DNA of 61,148 nt from Nitrospirota bacterium (GTDB lineage: Bacteria; Nitrospirota; Thermodesulfovibrionia; Thermodesulfovibrionales; UBA1546): positions 1-61,148 of the forward strand of contig JACQXE010000038.1 in NCBI GenBank assembly GCA_016208915.1, in the 5' to 3' direction. This document shows positions 29,482 to 45,559 of this stretch, one piece after another (within the stretch, counting starts at the first letter, position 1; every line of letters starts with the position of its first letter). The notes beneath the pieces are model-generated. The model ran no database searches. It saw only the letters and a program-made list of their open reading frames with translations, and was not told where the DNA came from. The translations under genes were made by a program, and so were the position numbers.

Positions 29482-30339
29482 ATGAAACAAAGAAATCTAT
29501 TATTTATATTTTTCTTTCTGGTGATAGCAGCAATCTTTTATGCTCCGGTAAAGAACCTGCTAATCCTGTCTCTGCGTTATAATGAGCTTTACTCTCATAT
29601 TGTGTTAATTCCTTTTGTAAGCATGTATTTTATTTATATTGATAAAAATAAAATATTTTCGAACATAGGATACTCTGCTAAAGCCGGAATCCCTTTAATC
29701 ATTATTGGGGTCATATTATTTCTTTGGGGTAAGACGCAGGGTTCAGGGTTTAATCAAAACGATTATCTCTCATTAATGACATCTTCAGCAATAGTAATGC
29801 TGATAGGAGGCTTTGTCTTATTTTATGGTTTGAAAGCCTTTAAAGCTGCCATGTTCCCTTTGTTTTCTCTTGTATTCATGATACCTGTTCCCAGTTTAAT
29901 AATGGACAGTTTCATTGCCTTTTTACAAAGGGCCTCTACTGAGGTTGCCTATATTCTTTTTACCCTCACAGGGGTCTCTTTTCTAAGAGAAGGTTTTGTC
30001 TTTCATCTTCAGGGGATTAGCGTTGAGGTTGCAGAACAGTGCAGCGGGATACGCTCAAGCCTTGCCCTATTTATCACCAGTATTATTGCAGGCAAGATGT
30101 TTCTGAATACGTCATCAAGAAAAGTGATTCTGGCATTATCAGTTTTCCCAATTACTGTATTTAAAAATGGCGTAAGAATAGTAACGCTTACACTCTTAGG
30201 CATGTATGTAGATCCGAGGATACTTGACAGCAATCTTCATAAACGGGGCGGGATTCCTATTTTTATCCTTGCCATTATGCTTTTGCTGTCTGTGCTTTGG
30301 ATTCTGAGAAAATCCGAAGCGATTAAAAAGAAAGGCTGA
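29482..30339 (+). CDS. Exosortase/archaeosortase family protein
   Basis: A 285-residue protein with about eight transmembrane helices. The catalytic triad positions are Cys187 in VAEQCSGIRSS, Arg232 in FKNGVRIVTL and His253 in DSNLHKRGG. Exosortases cut PEP-CTERM tails and attach the proteins to surface polymer in EPS-producing bacteria. It lacks the fused EpsI domain seen in some XrtA proteins. I see no PEP-CTERM protein in this window; the nearest candidate substrate-like protein has a CFI-box-type end (31574). It is divergent to the LamG/VanZ gene. Confidence 0.92.
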   Translation: MKQRNLLFIFFFLVIAAIFYAPVKNLLILSLRYNELYSHIVLIPFVSMYFIYIDKNKIFSNIGYSAKAGIPLIIIGVILFLWGKTQGSGFNQNDYLSLMTSSAIVMLIGGFVLFYGLKAFKAAMFPLFSLVFMIPVPSLIMDSFIAFLQRASTEVAYILFTLTGVSFLREGFVFHLQGISVEVAEQCSGIRSSLALFITSIIAGKMFLNTSSRKVILALSVFPITVFKNGVRIVTLTLLGMYVDPRILDSNLHKRGGIPIFILAIMLLLSVLWILRKSEAIKKKG

Positions 30340-31573: not shown

Positions 31574-33433
31574 CTATCTACCCTCTTTTTTATGAAGTTT
31601 TAGATATACAATACCAATAACCATAACAAAAATAACAAAAACAATCAAAATATATTGTATATATTTTACGCTGTAAAATATTGGTGTCAATAGAATTCTT
31701 GTTAATGTCCTGAGGTTCTCATGCCTTGAGATAATATCTGCACTTGGAGGAGATGTCCTGTAATATAATGATACAAATATCTTTCCTAATGGATTTGTGA
31801 GCAGATATTTGTCCCTGAAGCGTCTGAGCACCATAACATGTGGATCAAGATAGCTTCCATAGGCTGCGGTTGCAATGAAGCAACCTCCACCGCCTCCGCT
31901 GCCTGAAGAACTGGAAGCGCCTGAAACAGTAATTGTGGTTTCGCCTGTGGCTGTGGCTCCCTGATTGTCTGTAACCCTTACCCTGACTGTATAGGTGCCA
32001 GGGTTGTTATATGTATGAGAGACAGGATTGTTTGATGTTGTTGCATCATAAGTGCCGTTTCCGTCAAAGTCCCATTCATACTGAACTATTGTTCCGTCAG
32101 GGTCTGATACTATAGTTGAGAATGTGACTGCAAAAGGTGCTGTACCGCTGGATGAGCTTGGAGTCAAAGACTGTACAGAGGGCGGCTGGTTTGTAGCTGA
32201 TTCAACTATAATTGTGTCGTCTGATGTGTCATCTGTGATGTCGAGCCTTATCCTAACTCTTTGGAGGTTAGAAACTGCTGATGCTCCCCCATTGTCTGTG
32301 ACCCTCAGCTTTGGCTTGTATGTGCCGGCATTTATATAGGTGAAGGATGTGCTTGAAAGAGTAGCTGTGTTATTCTCATATGCTCCGTCTCCGTCAAGGT
32401 CCCATTCATAGGTTGCGATATAGCCGTCTGAATCTGAGGCAGATGCAGAGAAATTTACAATCAGCGGCTTGACGCCTCGCGCAGGGGCTGCAGCAAAAGA
32501 TATTATCAGAGGTGATGTGTTGGATGTAGTGAAGGTGTAATTTGTTGATACTGCCTCATTGTCTAAAGTATCCTTTGACCTTACACTGAAATTATAACGG
32601 GTGTAGCCTGTGAGTCCTGTAAGATTAACAGTGTGTGTGGTTACAAGGGTTGATGAGAGGGTTGTAAAGCTTCCGTATGAAGTGGTGAGGCCATATTGCA
32701 CCTGAGATGTTGATGCCTCATCTGTTACCCATGTGATGGTTGCTGAAGATGCTGTAATGGTTGTAACCTGCACATTAGATATTACAGGCGGTGTGGTATC
32801 CGGGGCTGCCGCTGTTGTGAATATATAAACAGTGGATATTGTCAGATTTCCTGAAAAATCACGACTGCGTACCCGATAATAGTATTGTGTAGAAGGCAAG
32901 AGATTGCTAATTGTCTGGCTGTGAGCTATGACGAGCGTGCCGTTAAGTGTGGTGGCGCTTCCGTATGAAGAGGTGGTTCCATATTCGACCTGTGTGTCTG
33001 AGGCCTCATCTGTTGTCCAGTTGATTGTTGCGCTGGTGCTTGTTATGTTATTTGTATATACCCCTGAGATCTGTGGCGGAGTGCTATCCGTGGATTCTAT
33101 TGTCTTGCTGACTTCATTGGAATATGCACTTTCGTTTCCAATTGTGTTATAGGCGGTTATTGCAAAATAATATGTCATACCGTCAATAAGATTATTTATT
33201 ACAGAAGTTGTTACATTGCCGACATCTATGGCTTTCGTATACGCACCTGATGAAATTCCATAATAAATCCTATAACCGACAAGATCAGTCAGGGCAGTTC
33301 CGTCAGTATTTGTTGTGGGCGCATTCCATGAAAGTGTGGCAGTGCTTGCAAACAGCAATCCTGAATTTGAGAAGATGACAGCGATGATGAAGAGTGCTGT
33401 GCATAACAATTTATTTTTTAGTTTTTTGCTCAT
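31574..33433 (-). CDS. Fn3/PKD surface protein with CFI-box C-terminus
   Basis: About 619 residues from ATG 33433 ([10 protein letters not shown]), which has AGGAG 8 bases before it. The in-frame ATG at 33454 lacks a site. Order: signal peptide; Fn3 domains at about 25-105, 115-205 and 210-300; PKD domains at about 310-400 and 415-505; a Ser/Gly spacer; the CFI box ([17 protein letters not shown]) near 525; and a C-terminal helix ([20 protein letters not shown]) with a basic tail. The CFI-box-CTERM layout suggests lipid or protease-mediated surface anchoring. Expression is controlled by a c-di-GMP riboswitch. Probably an adhesin or matrix protein. Confidence 0.85.
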
Positions 33434-33462
33434 ATGTTTTTCTCCTATAGTCATCAGCCAAT

Positions 33463-33520
33463 AAAAAAGCCGCCAGAAGCTTGTTCCTGACCTGATCAGG
33501 AAACTATTCCTCTGGCGGCT
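33463..33520 (-). terminator. Intrinsic terminator of the riboswitch
   Basis: On the minus strand AGCCGCCAGA and TCTGGCGGCT form a 10-bp stem with an inner TCCTGA/TCAGGA stem, followed by TTTTTTA. It ends 30 bases before the surface protein start. Its 5' arm shares CAGA with the 3' strand of the aptamer P1 helix. Confidence 0.88.
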
Positions 33521-33680
33521 CGGCGGACGATAAAGACAGTCTTTAGTGAATAGTTGTCAGTGAACAATCAAAATGGATACTTTTTTGCTAATTACTATCC
33601 ACTGTTCACTAACCACTGTCTCTTTAGTCCCGTTGCTCTGCGTCTCCACCTTTCGGCGGGTTTGCTCTGAGCAGAGGGCC
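33509..33680 (-). ncRNA. c-di-GMP-I (GEMM) riboswitch with extended P3
   Basis: On the minus strand: P1 CCTCTG...CAGAGG; then GCAAACC; P2 CCGCC-GAAA-GGTGG with its GNRA loop; then GACGCAGAGC and ACGGGACTAAAG, matching the GEMM-I core. P3 is GGGAC...GTCC plus GACAGT/ACTGTC. The P3 end carries about 77 extra bases of 7-base repeat words that also fold back (TTAGTGAA, TTCACTAA). Since P1 competes with the terminator arm, ligand binding should allow read-through (an ON switch). The 3' end CGTCCGCCGAG is a bit unusual. Confidence 0.82.
33541..33625. repeat. 7-base periodic tract inside riboswitch P3
   Basis: On the minus strand the words CAGTGGT, TAGTGAA, CAGTGGA, TAGTAAT are followed by TTGTTCA, CTGACAA, CTATTCA, CTAAAGA. 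The two halves are roughly reverse complements, so the tract forms its own hairpin. Confidence 0.75.
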
Positions 33681-34974: not shown

Positions 34975-37020
34975 ATGTTTGAGATTATTTTATCAACAGT
35001 AGCTGCATTATTCCTGATTATCCTTTCTTTTTATGCCTTGATAAGGCAGAGGACCGCTGCAAATATAGCCTTTTCTATTATTGCCTTTTTTATTGCGTTA
35101 ATCGAGGTTTTGGATCAATACACATTATATAGTTCGTATGATCCATTGGTATTAAAAAGGGTTGTAATCTTTTTTGAATCTTTTCTGCCTTTAACATTCT
35201 TATTCTTCAGCCTTATCTATTCCCGCCGGAATATTGCTAAATCGCTGTCTTTTTTATGGTGGGTTTTGATTTCTTTGACTATTCTCTTCCCTGTAAGCGT
35301 GTCTCTGCTTTCAATAGATAATTTTTTCTATTCTCCGGATCTTCTGACTGAGAGGATGTTATTTCTTGAGAAAATTGGTTATTGGTTTTATATAGGTGTA
35401 ATGCTCTATTGTGTAATAGCGCTTATAAACTTGGAGGCTACCTTTTCTTATACTGCAGGCAGGGACAGATGGAAGATGAAGTTTGAGGTTATAGGTATGA
35501 GCAGTATTCTGGCTGTCTTAATCTTCTATTTCAGTCAGGGACTCTTGTACAGGGCGATAAATATGAATCTGATACCTATAAGATCAGGGGTTTTGATAGT
35601 GGCCTCAATGCTTATAGGCTATTCCAGATTTTTCAGAGGCAATGGCGCAAGAATCGCAGTATCAAGATATATTGCCTACAGGTCGGTAACTCTTCTCGTA
35701 GTCGGGATTTATCTGCTCGCCCTCGGATTAATCGGTGAAGGGATGAAATATCTGGATGTTGCATTCAGCAGGGATCTGACAATATTTACTGCCTTTGCCA
35801 CTGGTATTGCTATAATAATCGTCTTATTTTCTGAAAGGCTGAGAAGGCTGACAAAGGTATTTATCAACAAACACTTCTATGCGCACAAGCACGATTATAG
35901 GAATGAGTGGTTAAAGTTTACCGGAAGGCTTACAGAATGCAGGACAATAAGTGATGTTCAGGATGCGATACTTGATACATATAAGGAGACGTTTGTTCTT
36001 AAGGGCGCATCATTGTATCTTTTTGACAAAGGGGCAGACAGATACAGGCTCTCTGCTTTCCATTCAATGCCCCATGAACCTGTTCACCTGAACGCAGAAG
36101 GTCTGATATCTTATTTTATAGAGAAGGGGAGGGTTTACAACCCCCTGGATCATGAGTACATCCCTTCTCAGGAAGAGGCAGAGTTTGTGCGCCTTGTGAG
36201 GGCAAGGCTGATAGTCCCATTGATAGGCAATGAAAGTGTAGAGGGGTTTGTAGTCTTAGGTGAAAAGCAGGTTAAGGATGAGTTTACATATGAGGACTAT
36301 GACCTGATGAAGACCTTTGCACGTCAGGCTTCCTCTGTGATAGTGAATCTAAGGCTTTCAGAGGAACTCTCAATGGCAAGGGAGATGGAGACGATAGGCA
36401 AAATCTCTACCTTTGTAATGCATGACCTCAAGAATCTTACATCTGCCTTATCTCTTGTTCTTGAGAATGCTAAGGAGTATATTAATGACCCTGATTTTCA
36501 AAAAGACACGCTCGATTCAATAAGCAATACAGTGGTAAAGATGAAATCAATGATGTTAAGACTCAGAAACCTCAGAGAGAAAGAGGCATTAAGGACAGAG
36601 CCTGCTGATCTTCATAAAATAATACGCGATGCGATAAGCATGATGAATTCAGAACATGTAAGAATAGAAGGCAGTTCTGTTATTGCGAATGTTGATAGGG
36701 AAGAGATAGAGAAGGTTGTACTAAACCTTATACTGAATGCCATAGAGGCTAATAAAGGAGAGGGTAAAGTTATTGTTGAGGTTGGACAAGGCGACGCGCC
36801 TTTTATAAGGGTAAGAGACAAAGGATGCGGGATGACAGAAGAGTTCATTAATAACCACTTATTTAAGCCTTTTAGCACTACCAAAAGTAAAGGGCTGGGA
36901 ATCGGTCTTTATCAATGCAGGCAGATAGTGCATAGCCATGGAGGAAGCATTGATGTGAGCAGCGAACCGGGCAAAGGGTCTGTATTTACAGTGTATCTGC
37001 CTTTATGTAAAATTAAATGA
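34975..37020 (+). CDS. prsK: PEP-CTERM system histidine kinase PrsK
   Basis: A 681-residue sensor kinase: eight or so transmembrane helices at 1-290, a GAF domain at about 320-455, and a kinase part with H box FVMHDLKNLTSALSL near 478. The ATPase has the N box VVLNLILNAIEANKG, G1 RDKGCGM and G2 TKSKGLGIGLYQ. The form is that of PrsK, the partner of PrsR in exosortase genomes. It probably phosphorylates PrsR (39840), separated from it by galE and the UDP-sugar dehydrogenase. Confidence 0.88.
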   Translation: MFEIILSTVAALFLIILSFYALIRQRTAANIAFSIIAFFIALIEVLDQYTLYSSYDPLVLKRVVIFFESFLPLTFLFFSLIYSRRNIAKSLSFLWWVLISLTILFPVSVSLLSIDNFFYSPDLLTERMLFLEKIGYWFYIGVMLYCVIALINLEATFSYTAGRDRWKMKFEVIGMSSILAVLIFYFSQGLLYRAINMNLIPIRSGVLIVASMLIGYSRFFRGNGARIAVSRYIAYRSVTLLVVGIYLLALGLIGEGMKYLDVAFSRDLTIFTAFATGIAIIIVLFSERLRRLTKVFINKHFYAHKHDYRNEWLKFTGRLTECRTISDVQDAILDTYKETFVLKGASLYLFDKGADRYRLSAFHSMPHEPVHLNAEGLISYFIEKGRVYNPLDHEYIPSQEEAEFVRLVRARLIVPLIGNESVEGFVVLGEKQVKDEFTYEDYDLMKTFARQASSVIVNLRLSEELSMAREMETIGKISTFVMHDLKNLTSALSLVLENAKEYINDPDFQKDTLDSISNTVVKMKSMMLRLRNLREKEALRTEPADLHKIIRDAISMMNSEHVRIEGSSVIANVDREEIEKVVLNLILNAIEANKGEGKVIVEVGQGDAPFIRVRDKGCGMTEEFINNHLFKPFSTTKSKGLGIGLYQCRQIVHSHGGSIDVSSEPGKGSVFTVYLPLCKIK

Positions 37021-39839: not shown

Positions 39840-41219
39840 ATGGAAAAGATACTAATTATTGATGACAGCGAAGATATAAGGAAACAGCTCAAATGGGGTC
39901 TCATAAAGGACTATTCTATATTCCTTGCAGGCAGCAGGCGGGAGGCGCTGCCTCTTTTTAGAAAGAATCGTCCAAAGGTTGTTACGCTTGACCTTGGTCT
40001 TCCGCCCCATGAAGACGGGACAGAGGAAGGATTCAGATGCCTTCAGGAGATTCTTGAAGCGCAGCCTGCTACAAAGATTATATTAATAACAGGCAATGAT
40101 CAGAGGGAAAGTGCTCTCAGGGCTATAGAGATGGGCGCCTATGATTTTTACCAAAAGCCGATAGAACTAAAGGAGTTGAGCGTTATCATACAGCGCGCCT
40201 TTTATCTCTTTAACATTGAGGAGGAGAATCGCAATCTGCATTCTGAGGTTCAGAGAAAACCATCCGAATTTTCTAAAATGATAGGGCAGTGCCCTGGGAT
40301 GCTTGAGGTCTTCGAAACTGCGAGGAAGGTTGCATCTTCTGATGTCGCTGTATTTATTCAGGGCGAAAGCGGGACAGGCAAGGAACTTGTTGCGAGGGCA
40401 ATACATTCGATGAGCCTGAGGAAAGAAGGGCCGTTCATACCGATAAACTGCGGGGCAATACCTGAGAACCTTCTCGAGTCAGAACTTTTCGGATATGAGA
40501 AGGGCGCTTTCACAGGCGCGAATACACGGGTTCAGGGCAGGTTTGAATATGCAAATAAAGGTACGCTCTTTCTTGATGAGATTGGAGAATTTCCGCTCAA
40601 TCTTCAGGTTAAACTGCTAAGGTTTCTTCAGGAGAAGACCATTCAGAGGGTAGGTGGCAGAGAGGATATAGCTGTGGATACGAGGATAATAGCTGCAACA
40701 AATGTAGATATACTGAAGGCGATAGAAGAAAACAGATTCAGGGAAGACCTCTATTACAGGATAGGAGTCATAACAATAAAACTTCCTCTTTTAAAGGAGC
40801 GAGGCTCTGATATAATTCTTCTTGCAAATTTCTTTCTGAAGAGATTCAGCCAGGAGTTTAATAAAAAGATTAAGGGTTTCAGTTCTTCAGCATTAAACCT
40901 GATACAGTCGTATGAATGGCCGGGAAATGTTAGGGAACTCGAGAACAAGATACAGCGGGCTGTTATCATGGCGGATTCCTCAATAATAGGCCCTGATACC
41001 CTTGGTTTTGGTATGGATAATGAATTACTGCAGATTCCCGAAATAGAATTAATGACCCTGAAAGAGGCAAAGGATAAAACAGAAAAAGACATAATAGCCT
41101 CTGCAATTGAGAGATATCATGGTAATGTCTTGAAGGCAGCAGAAATTCTCGGCGTAAGCAGACCTACCTTATATGAACTCATGAAAAAGCACAATATTAA
41201 TAATGTGCCTGAGGAATGA
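39840..41219 (+). CDS. prsR: PEP-CTERM system sigma-54 response regulator PrsR
   Basis: A 459-residue NtrC-type activator. Receiver domain 1-120 (DDSEDIR acidic pair, phosphorylated Asp in VVTLDLGLPP); AAA+ domain 140-375 with GESGTGKELVARAIH, the sigma-54-contacting GAFTGA, and the second Walker motif GTLFLDEIGEF; Fis-type HTH at the end (VLKAAEILGVSRPTLYELMK). The N-terminal form matches PrsR, the regulator of PEP-CTERM/exosortase systems. It should act on sigma-54 promoters such as that at 45684. Confidence 0.9.
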   Translation: MEKILIIDDSEDIRKQLKWGLIKDYSIFLAGSRREALPLFRKNRPKVVTLDLGLPPHEDGTEEGFRCLQEILEAQPATKIILITGNDQRESALRAIEMGAYDFYQKPIELKELSVIIQRAFYLFNIEEENRNLHSEVQRKPSEFSKMIGQCPGMLEVFETARKVASSDVAVFIQGESGTGKELVARAIHSMSLRKEGPFIPINCGAIPENLLESELFGYEKGAFTGANTRVQGRFEYANKGTLFLDEIGEFPLNLQVKLLRFLQEKTIQRVGGREDIAVDTRIIAATNVDILKAIEENRFREDLYYRIGVITIKLPLLKERGSDIILLANFFLKRFSQEFNKKIKGFSSSALNLIQSYEWPGNVRELENKIQRAVIMADSSIIGPDTLGFGMDNELLQIPEIELMTLKEAKDKTEKDIIASAIERYHGNVLKAAEILGVSRPTLYELMKKHNINNVPEE

Positions 41220-41222
41220 TTC

Positions 41223-43493
41223 TCAGAAAGAGTTTAAAAGCCCTCCGACAGCTTCCACGACCTTGGGATCGAATACCGACCCTGATGCTTCCCTGAGCAT
41301 CTGAAGCGACCTTTCTTTTCCGATTGCCTTTCTGTAAGGTCTTTCAGATGTCATGGCGCAGAACGCATCAACAACAGAAAGAACTCTTGACAAGAGAGGT
41401 ATATCTTCTCCTTTCAGGCGGTCAGGATATCCTGTTCCGTCATATCTTTCATGATGATGCAGTATTGCGTTTTTTATGTCATCTGAGAATTCAAAACTGT
41501 TAAGCAGGCTGACAGTGGCAGAAGGGTGTGTTCTGACTATGCGTGAGTCAGAAAGAGAGAGTTTTTCTTTTTTCAGCAGACTCTCGTCAATGGTTGTAAG
41601 TCCCAGGTCGTATACCGTGGATATATAGATAGCTTTCTTCTTGTCCTCTTCATCGGCGCCGAGCCTGTCCATAACCTTCAGGCTAAGGTCAGGCAGAAGA
41701 TGCGTCTTCTTCTGATATTTTTTGGCAGCATTAATAAACCCTTCTAAAGAAAGAAGGGTTTGTTTCAGGTCCTCTGCTTTATACTCGCCAGAATAGAGCT
41801 TTTCGATAAAATGGGATATTCTTTCGCTCAACACAGATGCTATGTAAAGATCCATTTTTGTAAAATCTTCCCCTGTTCTTTTGTTGTTAAGATTGAGCAC
41901 TCCTATTACCTTTTCACCTGTCTTTAACGGCAGGGAGAGAAGCGACTTTGTATTATACTGCGGGATATTTTTTCTTCCGAATCGCATATCGCTCTCTATG
42001 TTATTTATGAGGAGCGGGCTGCCTTTGAGCGCTACCCACCCTGCGATCTTGTCTCCGGGTTTTATCCTCGTTTGTTTGATTACACTTTCATCAAGCCCCT
42101 TTGCACTTGTAATCGTAAGTTCCCCTGTAAGGTTATCGCTTAACATGATTGAACATGTATCAATATCCAGCATCTCAGATATAAGCTCTATGAACATATC
42201 CATTGTAGTTCTGGTGATCATCTCAGTCTTCTGTTTTAAACCCTGCGGAATACTAAGGGCTATGGTGAAGGAATTATCAGTATTTTCTGTATGGAGCTTC
42301 CACCCCTGATATTCTGATATCTTTCGTGCCAGATAGAGCTTTAATTGTTCCTCAGGCTGGCTGAAACGGAATATGTGGTTTGAGTCAAAAAAATGGGGTA
42401 TTACGGTTTCAGGCAGTCTCCGTGGGAATATTAGGGTTACAGTAACAAGAGCACCGTCGAATGCAGAAAGCTCTATGGTGTCTCCTTTTTCGAGATATTG
42501 TGTCATACCGCTTATCAGATTAATAAAGAACTGCGCAAACCGTGTCTTGTCAATAATAATGTCTGAGTTTGCTTTTGAGCTATTTATATTTAAATGCAGA
42601 TTCTTTCTTGTGAGCACGGTCTTTAGCAGTTTAGACGTATCGAGGGTTTTGTTAAGAAGTTCTGAGAAGTTTACTATAGATTTTTTTATTATCTTAGCCT
42701 CGTCTTCAAGTTTTAGGAAATCCAATAGATTCTCAATGCTGTTGCTGAGACTGCCTGTCTCATTTGAGATCATATGAAAGAATTCCTTCTGCTCGTGTGT
42801 TGCTGTTTTGTCAGAGTGTTGCAGATAATAAATTGCGCCATTTATCGAGTTTAATGGTGTTCTGAGCTCATGCGAGGTACGGGTCAGAAATTCGGTCTTG
42901 ATGATGTCTGTCTCGATGAGGTTTTTGTTTATATCTTCGAGTTCCGCAGCCTTGGTCTTGAGCTGGTTCATAAGAAAGGCATTTTCTAATATGATGGCTG
43001 CCTGATTGGCAATTGTTTTCAGGAGGGAAAATTCATCCTCGGTGAATAATGATTTATCTTTTTTATCGTTTATATTGATTACTCCAAGGAGTTTGTTCTT
43101 AATTACTATTGGGCAGGAAATAAATGACCTTGTCTTATAGCGGTCTCTTTTTTTGTTTTTAAATCTGTTGTCTTTTTCTATATTAGTGACTAGGACAGGG
43201 ACTCTGTTTTTGGCAACTGTGCCTGCAATACCTTCGCCGATCTTTATCCTGTAGGTCTTTATAAGATAAGGATCTATACCCCTTGAGGCAAATATCGAGA
43301 GTTCTTCCTTGCTGTTCAGCAGCATAAGGGATCCCTTTTCAGCGTTAGTGTAGTTTACGGCAAGGTCGAGCATCAAATTCGAGATTACATTTATGTTGTC
43401 TGTAGCTACAATAGTATTGGAGATCTCATCGAGTATAGAGAACTTTTTTTCGAACAGGACATAATTTTCTGCCGAAAAGTTTTTATGATCCAT
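41223..43493 (-). CDS. GAF / degenerate histidine kinase / GAF / degenerate HD-GYP protein
   Basis: A 756-residue signalling protein: GAF at about 20-170, a HisKA helix pair with H box RTSHELRTPLNS near 210, a poorly conserved ATPase region (about 310-415, without a clear N box), a second GAF (425-575), and an HD-GYP domain (595-750). In HD-GYP the usual H-D-I-G-K reads YDLGL, so the first metal His is lost; RTHP, HHERYDGTGYP and VDAF remain. It may bind, but not efficiently degrade, c-di-GMP. It is 23 bases after the diguanylate cyclase gene in one operon. Confidence 0.8.
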   Translation of the reverse strand: MDHKNFSAENYVLFEKKFSILDEISNTIVATDNINVISNLMLDLAVNYTNAEKGSLMLLNSKEELSIFASRGIDPYLIKTYRIKIGEGIAGTVAKNRVPVLVTNIEKDNRFKNKKRDRYKTRSFISCPIVIKNKLLGVININDKKDKSLFTEDEFSLLKTIANQAAIILENAFLMNQLKTKAAELEDINKNLIETDIIKTEFLTRTSHELRTPLNSINGAIYYLQHSDKTATHEQKEFFHMISNETGSLSNSIENLLDFLKLEDEAKIIKKSIVNFSELLNKTLDTSKLLKTVLTRKNLHLNINSSKANSDIIIDKTRFAQFFINLISGMTQYLEKGDTIELSAFDGALVTVTLIFPRRLPETVIPHFFDSNHIFRFSQPEEQLKLYLARKISEYQGWKLHTENTDNSFTIALSIPQGLKQKTEMITRTTMDMFIELISEMLDIDTCSIMLSDNLTGELTITSAKGLDESVIKQTRIKPGDKIAGWVALKGSPLLINNIESDMRFGRKNIPQYNTKSLLSLPLKTGEKVIGVLNLNNKRTGEDFTKMDLYIASVLSERISHFIEKLYSGEYKAEDLKQTLLSLEGFINAAKKYQKKTHLLPDLSLKVMDRLGADEEDKKKAIYISTVYDLGLTTIDESLLKKEKLSLSDSRIVRTHPSATVSLLNSFEFSDDIKNAILHHHERYDGTGYPDRLKGEDIPLLSRVLSVVDAFCAMTSERPYRKAIGKERSLQMLREASGSVFDPKVVEAVGGLLNSF

Positions 43494-43516: not shown

Positions 43517-45559
43517 CTAAAGTTCCTTGGTATCTTCGACATCGCCGATAAGATTATTCCATACGGCTGTGATGTTTTTCCCTAATCTTTTGGCTTTGTA
43601 TAATGCCATGTCAGCGCACTTTATAAGCTGGCTTATTGGTTCTCCGCAGTCAGGAAACATTGCTATACCTATGCTGACTGTCAGGCTGCCCTTTGGATAT
43701 TTTTTCCATGTCGGAGGTATCATGTTTTTTGTGATTTTTCTTATTCTTTCAGCTACATAGAATGCCTCTGCCTTTTTTGTCTGGGGCATGATAATTGCAA
43801 ATTCCTCACCGCCATATCTCACAATTATGTCATTAGCCCTGATGACACTGTTCATGCTTGAGGCGACTTCCTTTAGTATGTCATCACCGGCGAGATGACC
43901 TTCTGTATCATTGAAGATTTTGAAGTCATCTATATCCACCATTGCGAGAGAAAACGGCATATTGAACCTCTTGGATCTCTGGAATTCCTCTTCAAATCTG
44001 ACATCAAAATATCTTCTGTTGAACAGGCCAGTGAGAGGATCAGTCATAGAGAGATGTTCCATTTCTCCTGAAGTTATATGGCAGAAGGCGAGTTTCAGGA
44101 GAAGCGAGGTCTGGAGTATGAACGGGCTGAGCATAGAAATGTCCTCTTCTGAGAAGGGCGCTCCAGAGTTTTTGTCAGAGAGATTCAGAATACCGATTGT
44201 CTCGTCTTCTATCTTGAGCGGAAGGCTGACGCAGGAATATGTATTAAATGAAGGCTTTGGTGTTATGCCGAAATCCTTGAACATTTCCTTGTTCTCGATG
44301 AGTATTGGAAAGCCTTGCTTGAATGCCTTGCCTGCAATCCCTTCGCCGGTCCTGACCCGTATATCATCCATAAGCCATTTTGTTATGCCTTTTACAGCAT
44401 TCACCCGCAGGACACTTTTGTCGGTATCAGGCAGCATAAGAGAGCATTTCTCAGCGCCCACAATATCTGATGCCTCATGGACAATGCTGTTATAGAGGCG
44501 CTGCGGGTCCTTATGCAGGAAATAAAGCTGAGATATTTTCTGGGAGGCCAGTTTAAATGTCTCCGAATGCTTTTCAAACTTCTCAGCCATATACTTTGCA
44601 TTGCATATATGAGCCAAGAGCCTGCATATTTCTGATATCGAATCAAATGATTCTTTATCGAGCAATGTATTAAAGATGCCGAGGATATTGAAGAATCCTG
44701 AGCCAGGGGATATCGGGAAAAGATACATTGATATAACCTCTTCTGGTAATCCATCATGCCAGAGGTGGCGGCTGTCTATTACTGAAACAGGTCTGTTAGA
44801 GGTGATTGCCTCGCGTACGAACTTGTCCTTATCAGAGAGTTCGATCTTTTTTATTACACTCCTCAGCCTTCCGCTCGATATCTCTGCATGTAAAGAACCG
44901 TTGCCCTGCACAAAGACTGCAGCGGTATCAACATTAAAAAGGAAGATTGCAAGGTCAATAATTGCTTTATAGATATCTTTCATTGGAGTGTCAGATTTAA
45001 CATTTGAAATAAGATTTATGATTGTCTTTGACCATTGATGCTGTTTTTTCAGGTCTCCCTTTTCATAGCCGGCAGATATCAGAATCTCGAGAATCTCTTT
45101 TATGTGACTTGTATTGCTTTTAATTTTTTCCAAAGGAACAACCTGAATGTCTTTCAGAAACTTTGGAATGTTATTTTCTGTCAGGCCGAAATCACTGCCC
45201 TTTTCCCTGTAGAATTTTTTAAAATCATCGGTTGATGCATAGAATGACTCTGAAAGCACGACCATTGACATTCCCTTATAATGCAGGGGGATGAATATAT
45301 GGTATTGTCCTGTTGGACCCTGCACTATCAGTGGATCTTTTCTCCTTAGTGAGTGGTTAAGATATCTGTCAATAAAATTGTTGTAAATCTCCTGACCTTT
45401 TTTATGCGACTTTATGGATGAGAGAAGTGCGTCTTCTTTTGTAGAGGCTATCAGCAGGTGACGCCTGTCATCATACAGGAAATAATTCAGCCCTGTCAGA
45501 TGCGAGAGAGACTCGAATGCCTTTGTGATAGATTGTATATCAAGAAACTGGTATGTCAT
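43517..45559 (-). CDS. Diguanylate cyclase with GAF domains
   Basis: A 680-residue protein: an N-terminal sensory region (1-170), two GAF-like domains (about 180-325 and 345-495), and a C-terminal GGDEF domain (510-665). The active site is GGEEFAII, with the inhibitory I-site RAND five residues earlier, and the substrate region DIDDFKIFNDTEGHLAGDD (positions 545-563) is intact. It should synthesise c-di-GMP with product inhibition. A sigma-54-type promoter lies upstream (45684). The product could feed the riboswitch at 33509. Confidence 0.9.
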   Translation of the reverse strand: MTYQFLDIQSITKAFESLSHLTGLNYFLYDDRRHLLIASTKEDALLSSIKSHKKGQEIYNNFIDRYLNHSLRRKDPLIVQGPTGQYHIFIPLHYKGMSMVVLSESFYASTDDFKKFYREKGSDFGLTENNIPKFLKDIQVVPLEKIKSNTSHIKEILEILISAGYEKGDLKKQHQWSKTIINLISNVKSDTPMKDIYKAIIDLAIFLFNVDTAAVFVQGNGSLHAEISSGRLRSVIKKIELSDKDKFVREAITSNRPVSVIDSRHLWHDGLPEEVISMYLFPISPGSGFFNILGIFNTLLDKESFDSISEICRLLAHICNAKYMAEKFEKHSETFKLASQKISQLYFLHKDPQRLYNSIVHEASDIVGAEKCSLMLPDTDKSVLRVNAVKGITKWLMDDIRVRTGEGIAGKAFKQGFPILIENKEMFKDFGITPKPSFNTYSCVSLPLKIEDETIGILNLSDKNSGAPFSEEDISMLSPFILQTSLLLKLAFCHITSGEMEHLSMTDPLTGLFNRRYFDVRFEEEFQRSKRFNMPFSLAMVDIDDFKIFNDTEGHLAGDDILKEVASSMNSVIRANDIIVRYGGEEFAIIMPQTKKAEAFYVAERIRKITKNMIPPTWKKYPKGSLTVSIGIAMFPDCGEPISQLIKCADMALYKAKRLGKNITAVWNNLIGDVEDTKEL

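Follow-up and report, generated by a model that had tools for sequence, protein, structure and literature searches.

A GEMM-I riboswitch of the A20 subtype with an expanded P3 arm, predicted to be a transcriptional ON switch for a surface protein gene in a Nitrospirota bacterium

Several 3',3'-cGAMP riboswitches of the GEMM-Ib type (those of pilM, pgcA/GSU1761 and Gmet_0970) have been described in Geobacter. They have the GEMM-I fold, an A at position 20 (A20) and a terminator formed from the 3' strand of the aptamer, and their targets are pili, envelope and extracellular proteins. In the pilM element of Geobacter metallireducens, an ON switch, the RNA folds either as aptamer or as terminator, and P1 needs the ligand to form (PMC9262584). 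In the GEMM-Ib element Gmet_0970, the substitution A20G alone shifts the selectivity from cGAMP to c-di-GMP (PMC6456294); other work describes position 20 as a selectivity factor and not as a hard filter (PMC9262584). The Hypr GGDEF proteins, which include GacA (GSU1658/Gmet_1914), are recognized by a signature consisting of Ser in place of Asp, GGDEF and a residue other than Arg at the cross-dimer position (PMC6456294). Among the Rfam families, RF01051 (c-di-GMP-I) has the same overall fold with G as the consensus at position 20, and RF03167 (c-di-GMP-I-GGC), a member of the same clan, has a consensus G after the P2-closing pair (GCGAA).

An element of this known kind was identified on the minus strand of the stretch of DNA analysed here (61,148 nt; the window), which comes from a Nitrospirota bacterium. 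The element has the fold, the A20 and the terminator arrangement of the Geobacter switches, and the ON logic is predicted to be common as well. It differs from them in its host phylum, in a P3 arm of about 98 nt made of dispersed repeats and in its Fn3/PKD/CFI-box target, and its ligand is a prediction. The expanded arm is its unusual feature. The aptamer, the overlap of aptamer and terminator, the covariation, the A20 and the Ser signature of a GGDEF protein on another contig are read from the sequence; the ligand, the ON behaviour, the source of the signal and the harmlessness of the arm are inferred. It is probable that the element works as a transcriptional ON riboswitch (GEMM-I, A20 subtype), most likely responding to 3',3'-cGAMP that is probably supplied by a Hypr protein encoded on contig C54, with an arm that does no harm.

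A covariance model of the A20 subtype (R1) was built from 30 unexpanded aptamers of other organisms, leaving out the source genome, with the structure written out by the author. R1 matches the window at a single site within the 61 kb (33677..33509, minus strand), with 81.1 bits and an E-value of 1.3e-21 over all 93 model positions, which is where the preliminary description had placed a GEMM-I core. The R1 alignment contains the P1/P2/P3 three-way junction, the conserved pocket and the GAAA tetraloop of P2. The 5' strand of P1, CCUCUG, lies at 33672..33677 and its 3' strand, CAGAGG, at 33509..33514. P2 with its tetraloop (CCCGCC GAAA GGUGGA; R1 and RF03167 alignments) occupies 33645..33660, and the 5' base of P3, CGGGAC (33627..33632), is partnered by GUCCGCCG (33528-33521) according to R1 and the pair counts of the subtype. 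In the 30 aptamers, 93.5% of the cells of the structure are paired, against 80.2% after shuffling; helix covariation is 0.389, against 0.146 in shuffled alignments and at most 0.105 in slid versions, and P1 is among the co-varying helices.

Rfam models at their gathering cut-offs detect only a tRNA in the window. This outcome formally speaks against the earlier claim of a GEMM-I family match but is misleading, and the claim is borne out by the R1 score. RF01051 gives the element 30.8 bits (cut-off 35) with an alignment cut short at 33605, because a hairpin of about 98 nt lies inside the P3 arm; relatives without the insertion reach 61-68 bits. Over the whole genome, RF01051 finds four places, three above the cut-off and the window element below it. 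The best permissive local match is that of RF03167 at 33675..33510 (36.1 bits, E 6e-7, cut-off 59), and since it carries a 92-nt insertion, the 3' half of the aptamer lies beyond that insertion. The 72-nt RF01051 match at 33605-33676 was therefore rejected as the entire aptamer, in agreement with R1. RF03583 (MIR781) matched both strands of the P3 arm, far under the cut-off of 88, and these matches were rejected as an effect of the palindrome. Judged by its sequence, the element is a genuine GEMM-I riboswitch of the A20 (GEMM-Ib-like) subtype.

The expanded P3 arm, which the preliminary description had not mentioned, comprises 98 nt at 33626-33529 (minus strand) that fold into one imperfect hairpin of TTAGTGAACAGTGGATAGT and ACTATTCACT repeats (z = -4.05 and -4.78 in two computations). 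Similar repeats occur at eight further sites of the genome (C37:23232, C57:20220, C74:21702, C20:6077, C26:14930, C3:57906, C79:35932 and C61:15289 of G000), with AGTGAATAGTGAACAGTG-type units and their complement. The dispersed repeat is degenerate and palindromic, with units of 6-7 nt (AGTGAAT/AGTGAAC and complement), a variable arm length and no fixed ends, and at least several copies look intergenic. The arm was also considered as an insertion element bounded by GACAGT...ACTGTC, which was rejected because the other genomic copies are without those ends; the GACAGT/ACTGTC flanks are more likely part of the P3 stem. A literature search on the repeat sequence and on transposable elements in aptamers found no relevant paper.

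The genome contains a second A20 switch, L003 (1550-1648, corresponding to G000:C57:30482-30580), upstream of a gene for an SLT/LysM protein. Its aptamer is nearly equal to that of the window and identical in the last 20 nt, but its arm of about 100 nt is different, consisting of AGCTGATRGCTG-like units unrelated to the window arm; no copies of the L003 arm were found elsewhere in the genome at E 0.01. Of 99 A20 aptamers, 75 have arms of 20-54 nt and 24 have arms of 66-134 nt. In several of the long-armed aptamers, mostly from Nitrospirota metagenome-assembled genomes, comparable unit repeats sit at the corresponding position, with z as low as -6.4. The long-armed copies tested score 67-85 bits with R1 and keep P1 and the terminator intact, which argues that the arm is tolerated and that the aptamer, on this comparative evidence, is permissive for recurrent P3-arm expansion.

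It is accordingly very unlikely that the inserted repeat broke the aptamer and left a decayed riboswitch whose 5' UTR now simply terminates. Decay would fit the 98-nt insertion, the Rfam score under the cut-off and a change in the tetraloop receptor of P3, where the 5' side CUAAA is kept and the 3' side reads UAUCGU, one C more than the UAUGU of relatives; the extra C could weaken tetraloop docking. Against decay, the pocket, P1 (6/6 pairs) and the terminator (10/10 pairs and a U-tract) are intact in the window element as in other long-armed switches, with the scores just given, the arm is a closed hairpin (z of -4 to -5), and L003 has the same aptamer ends around a different arm. In the functional switch that we favour, the repeat-derived hairpin would replace the P3 arm and lengthen P3 while sparing the pocket, P1 and the terminator.

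The intrinsic terminator (33463..33521, minus strand) consists of a 5' arm, GAGCCGCCAGAGG (33521-33509), a loop hairpin, a 3' arm (33479-33467) and a T6 tract (33468-33463). Its 5' arm includes the 3' strand of P1, CAGAGG, which forms the distal part of the arm and is the presumptive switching strand. This overlap, already noted in the preliminary description, is kept in relatives: 65 of the 99 A20 aptamers have a terminator on the same strand, with a matching downstream arm followed by a U-tract. In 45 distinct pairs of P1 strands, 5.22 of 6 positions are paired, against 4.23 after permutation (maximum 4.62 in 2000 permutations). For the terminator, 3.40 of the four positions that it has in common with P1 are paired, against 2.73 after permutation (maximum 3.10). 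These figures are inflated by kinship among the 99 aptamers. The P1 5' strand, the shared strand and the terminator 3' strand co-vary as triplets (for example, CUUUG/CAAAG/CUUUG, CUCUG/CAGAG/CUCUG and CGCUG/CAGCG/CGCUG). Such three-strand covariation is the expectation of competition between ligand and terminator, and the ON switch predicted earlier from this competition is thus well supported across species as a prediction from comparative sequence data.

In folding calculations, the P1 fold lies 1.4 kcal/mol off the minimum free energy before the 3' arm of the terminator exists, and it is 20.7 kcal/mol worse once that arm is present; the decision would therefore be taken while RNA polymerase covers the loop, which fits a kinetic switch of the pilM kind. 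The same 20.7 kcal/mol, the advantage of the terminator fold over the P1 fold once the transcript is complete, would also suit a constitutive intrinsic terminator or attenuator on which the ligand acts in the opposite sense (an OFF switch) or not at all. We regard this as extremely unlikely, given that the shared strand is complementary to both partners across relatives, of which an uncoupled terminator would have no need, and that the homologous pilM element is an ON switch (PMC9262584). In the ON switch, RNA polymerase would make the aptamer (33677..33509) and the ligand would bind the P1/P2/P3 junction during the next 30-40 nt or so. Bound ligand would hold P1 (CCUCUG/CAGAGG) and keep its 3' strand from the terminator, so that the surface protein is made. 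In the unliganded RNA, the shared strand would pair with 33479-33467 and transcription would stop. An alternative anti-P1 helix, CUCUGC:GCAGAG, was rejected, as it is not kept where P1 becomes CUUUG or CGCUG; its probability in the folds is 0.09 for the window and 0.45 for L003. A consensus promoter scan for the switch gave no match on the minus strand.

The spacing between the shared strand and the 3' arm of the terminator is bimodal in Nitrospirota A20 loci, being about 8-13 or 31-37 nt (for example, L081, L094, L152 and L156 versus L100, L102 and L140). A longer terminator loop would widen the decision window of the switch. The two other GEMM-I switches of the genome, L001 (1501-1620) and L002 (1501-1610), also have terminators that start from the 3' strand of the aptamer (GGCCGAGCUGCC... 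and GCCGAGCUGCC..., respectively), and from their sequences they look like ON switches too.

The preliminary description had named c-di-GMP as the ligand, which is probably wrong: it had overlooked position 20 (33666, minus strand), which carries A, the cGAMP-type letter. In the RF01051 alignment of the four GEMM-I copies of the genome, this position is A in the window switch and L003 and G in L001 and L002, suggesting two regulons. Position 11 of the RF01051 model was equated with position 20 of Vc2 from the P2-closing pair (model positions 12-13 and 36-37). The window reads GCAGA where the RF03167 consensus reads GCGAA. Its P2-closing pair is G21-C46, as in the c-di-GMP switch Vc2. C15 and G40 are among the contacts listed for the crystal structure with cGAMP (PMC6274999), suggesting a C-G closing pair there.

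A GEMM-I ON switch that senses c-di-GMP, in which A20 merely relaxes the selectivity and many canonical diguanylate cyclases supply the signal, is unlikely, if a more serious contender. It draws on the Vc2-like closing pair, on the Asp kept in 18 of the 19 GGDEF domains of the genome and on the softness of position 20 as a filter (PMC9262584). It is opposed by the split between two A20 and two G20 switches in one genome, by the effect of A20G alone on the selectivity of Gmet_0970 (PMC6456294) and by the presence of a Hypr GGDEF protein in the genome. As cGAMP riboswitches can bind c-di-GMP, a dual response is possible.

The preferred ligand, cGAMP, was also considered across 395 Nitrospirota genomes. 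A Hypr-pattern match occurs in 50 of the 55 genomes with an A20 switch (sorted by eye from matched strings; two of the 50 matches, in G015 and G270, look like chance) and in 167 of the 340 other genomes, where random matches are included (Fisher p 1e-9). This association is confounded by phylogeny, both features being missing from large clades such as f29, and the Hypr pattern is frequent where A20 switches are absent as well. The co-occurrence supports cGAMP as the ligand but does not prove it.

Of the 19 GGDEF domains, one has Ser for Asp. It belongs to a GAF-GGDEF protein on contig C54 (NDIHGHLVGS...GGDEF), with Ser at the guanine-contacting position and Thr as the cross-dimer residue (44 residues back, as in the spacing of GacA). 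Like GacA, this candidate has Ser for Asp, GGDEF and not GGEEF, and a residue other than Arg at the cross-dimer position; it differs in being a putative enzyme of GAF-GGDEF architecture with an N-terminal part without domain assignment. It is the sole candidate cGAMP synthase of the genome by these motifs, and it is encoded away from the window. The gene (L014; G000:C54:79169-79642) is immediately followed by what looks like a small-GTPase (MglA-like) gene and preceded by what looks like the end of secA, and the Ser signature of the Hypr GAF-GGDEF protein recurs in many Nitrospirota genomes.

The window does encode the diguanylate cyclase and the degenerate HD-GYP protein reported earlier, but the analysis does not support the earlier proposal that the circuit is readable from the window. 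The PocR-GAF-GGDEF cyclase (43517..45559, minus strand), about 10 kb from the switch, is canonical in its motifs (GD, GGEEF and a cross-dimer Arg) and is not the predicted source of the signal, which would probably be the genome's single Hypr GGDEF protein on C54. The GAF-HisKA-GAF-HD_5 protein (41223..43493, minus strand) carries VYDLG where the HD dyad would be expected, an HHxxxDGTGYP-like motif and no recognized HATPase domain, and it is possibly a cyclic-dinucleotide receptor or a dead phosphodiesterase.

The regulated gene (31574..33433, minus strand) lies downstream of the switch, as the preliminary description had stated, and starts at 33433 after a ribosome-binding site, AGGAG (33442..33446). 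It encodes a 619-aa protein with a signal peptide (called by eye), an Fn3 domain, two Pur_ac_phosph_N (Fn3-like) domains, two PKD domains and a CFI-box C-terminus (NCBIfam NF041770, CFI_box_CTERM, 106 bits). The gene is located in an exopolysaccharide/exosortase region whose exosortase, PrsK and PrsR genes (NCBIfam) lie at 29482-30339, 34975-37020 and 39840-41219 of the plus strand. The best NCBIfam model of the exosortase is XrtC (VPDSG-CTERM), under the cut-off; the neighbouring PrsK and PrsR belong to the XrtA/PEP-CTERM system. The first genes after A20 switches in Nitrospirota and related bacteria often encode Fn3 proteins (10 of 36), and others encode PilM (two) and an SLT/LysM protein; one long-armed switch precedes a gene for a class III cytochrome-like protein. 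The PilM, cytochrome-like and surface proteins partly resemble the cGAMP targets of Geobacter.

If the reading presented here is true, cGAMP and not c-di-GMP sets the expression of surface matrix proteins in uncultured Nitrospirota, and a pathway characterized mainly in Geobacter extends to organisms in which Hypr-like GGDEF proteins are common. Standard Rfam screens would under-count such switches because the P3 repeat lowers the score below the cut-off while the functional parts are kept. Two near-identical aptamers with unrelated arms in one genome form a natural experiment on the length of P3 in a kinetic riboswitch. More tentatively, and with doubts that outweigh our confidence, a cGAMP signalling branch, in which Hypr GGDEF enzymes act through A20 ON switches that control surface proteins of the Fn3/Ig type, may run through much of the Nitrospirota, with the P3 arm as a preferred and repeatedly refilled landing site for palindromic repeats that add about 100 nt and possibly tune co-transcriptional folding.
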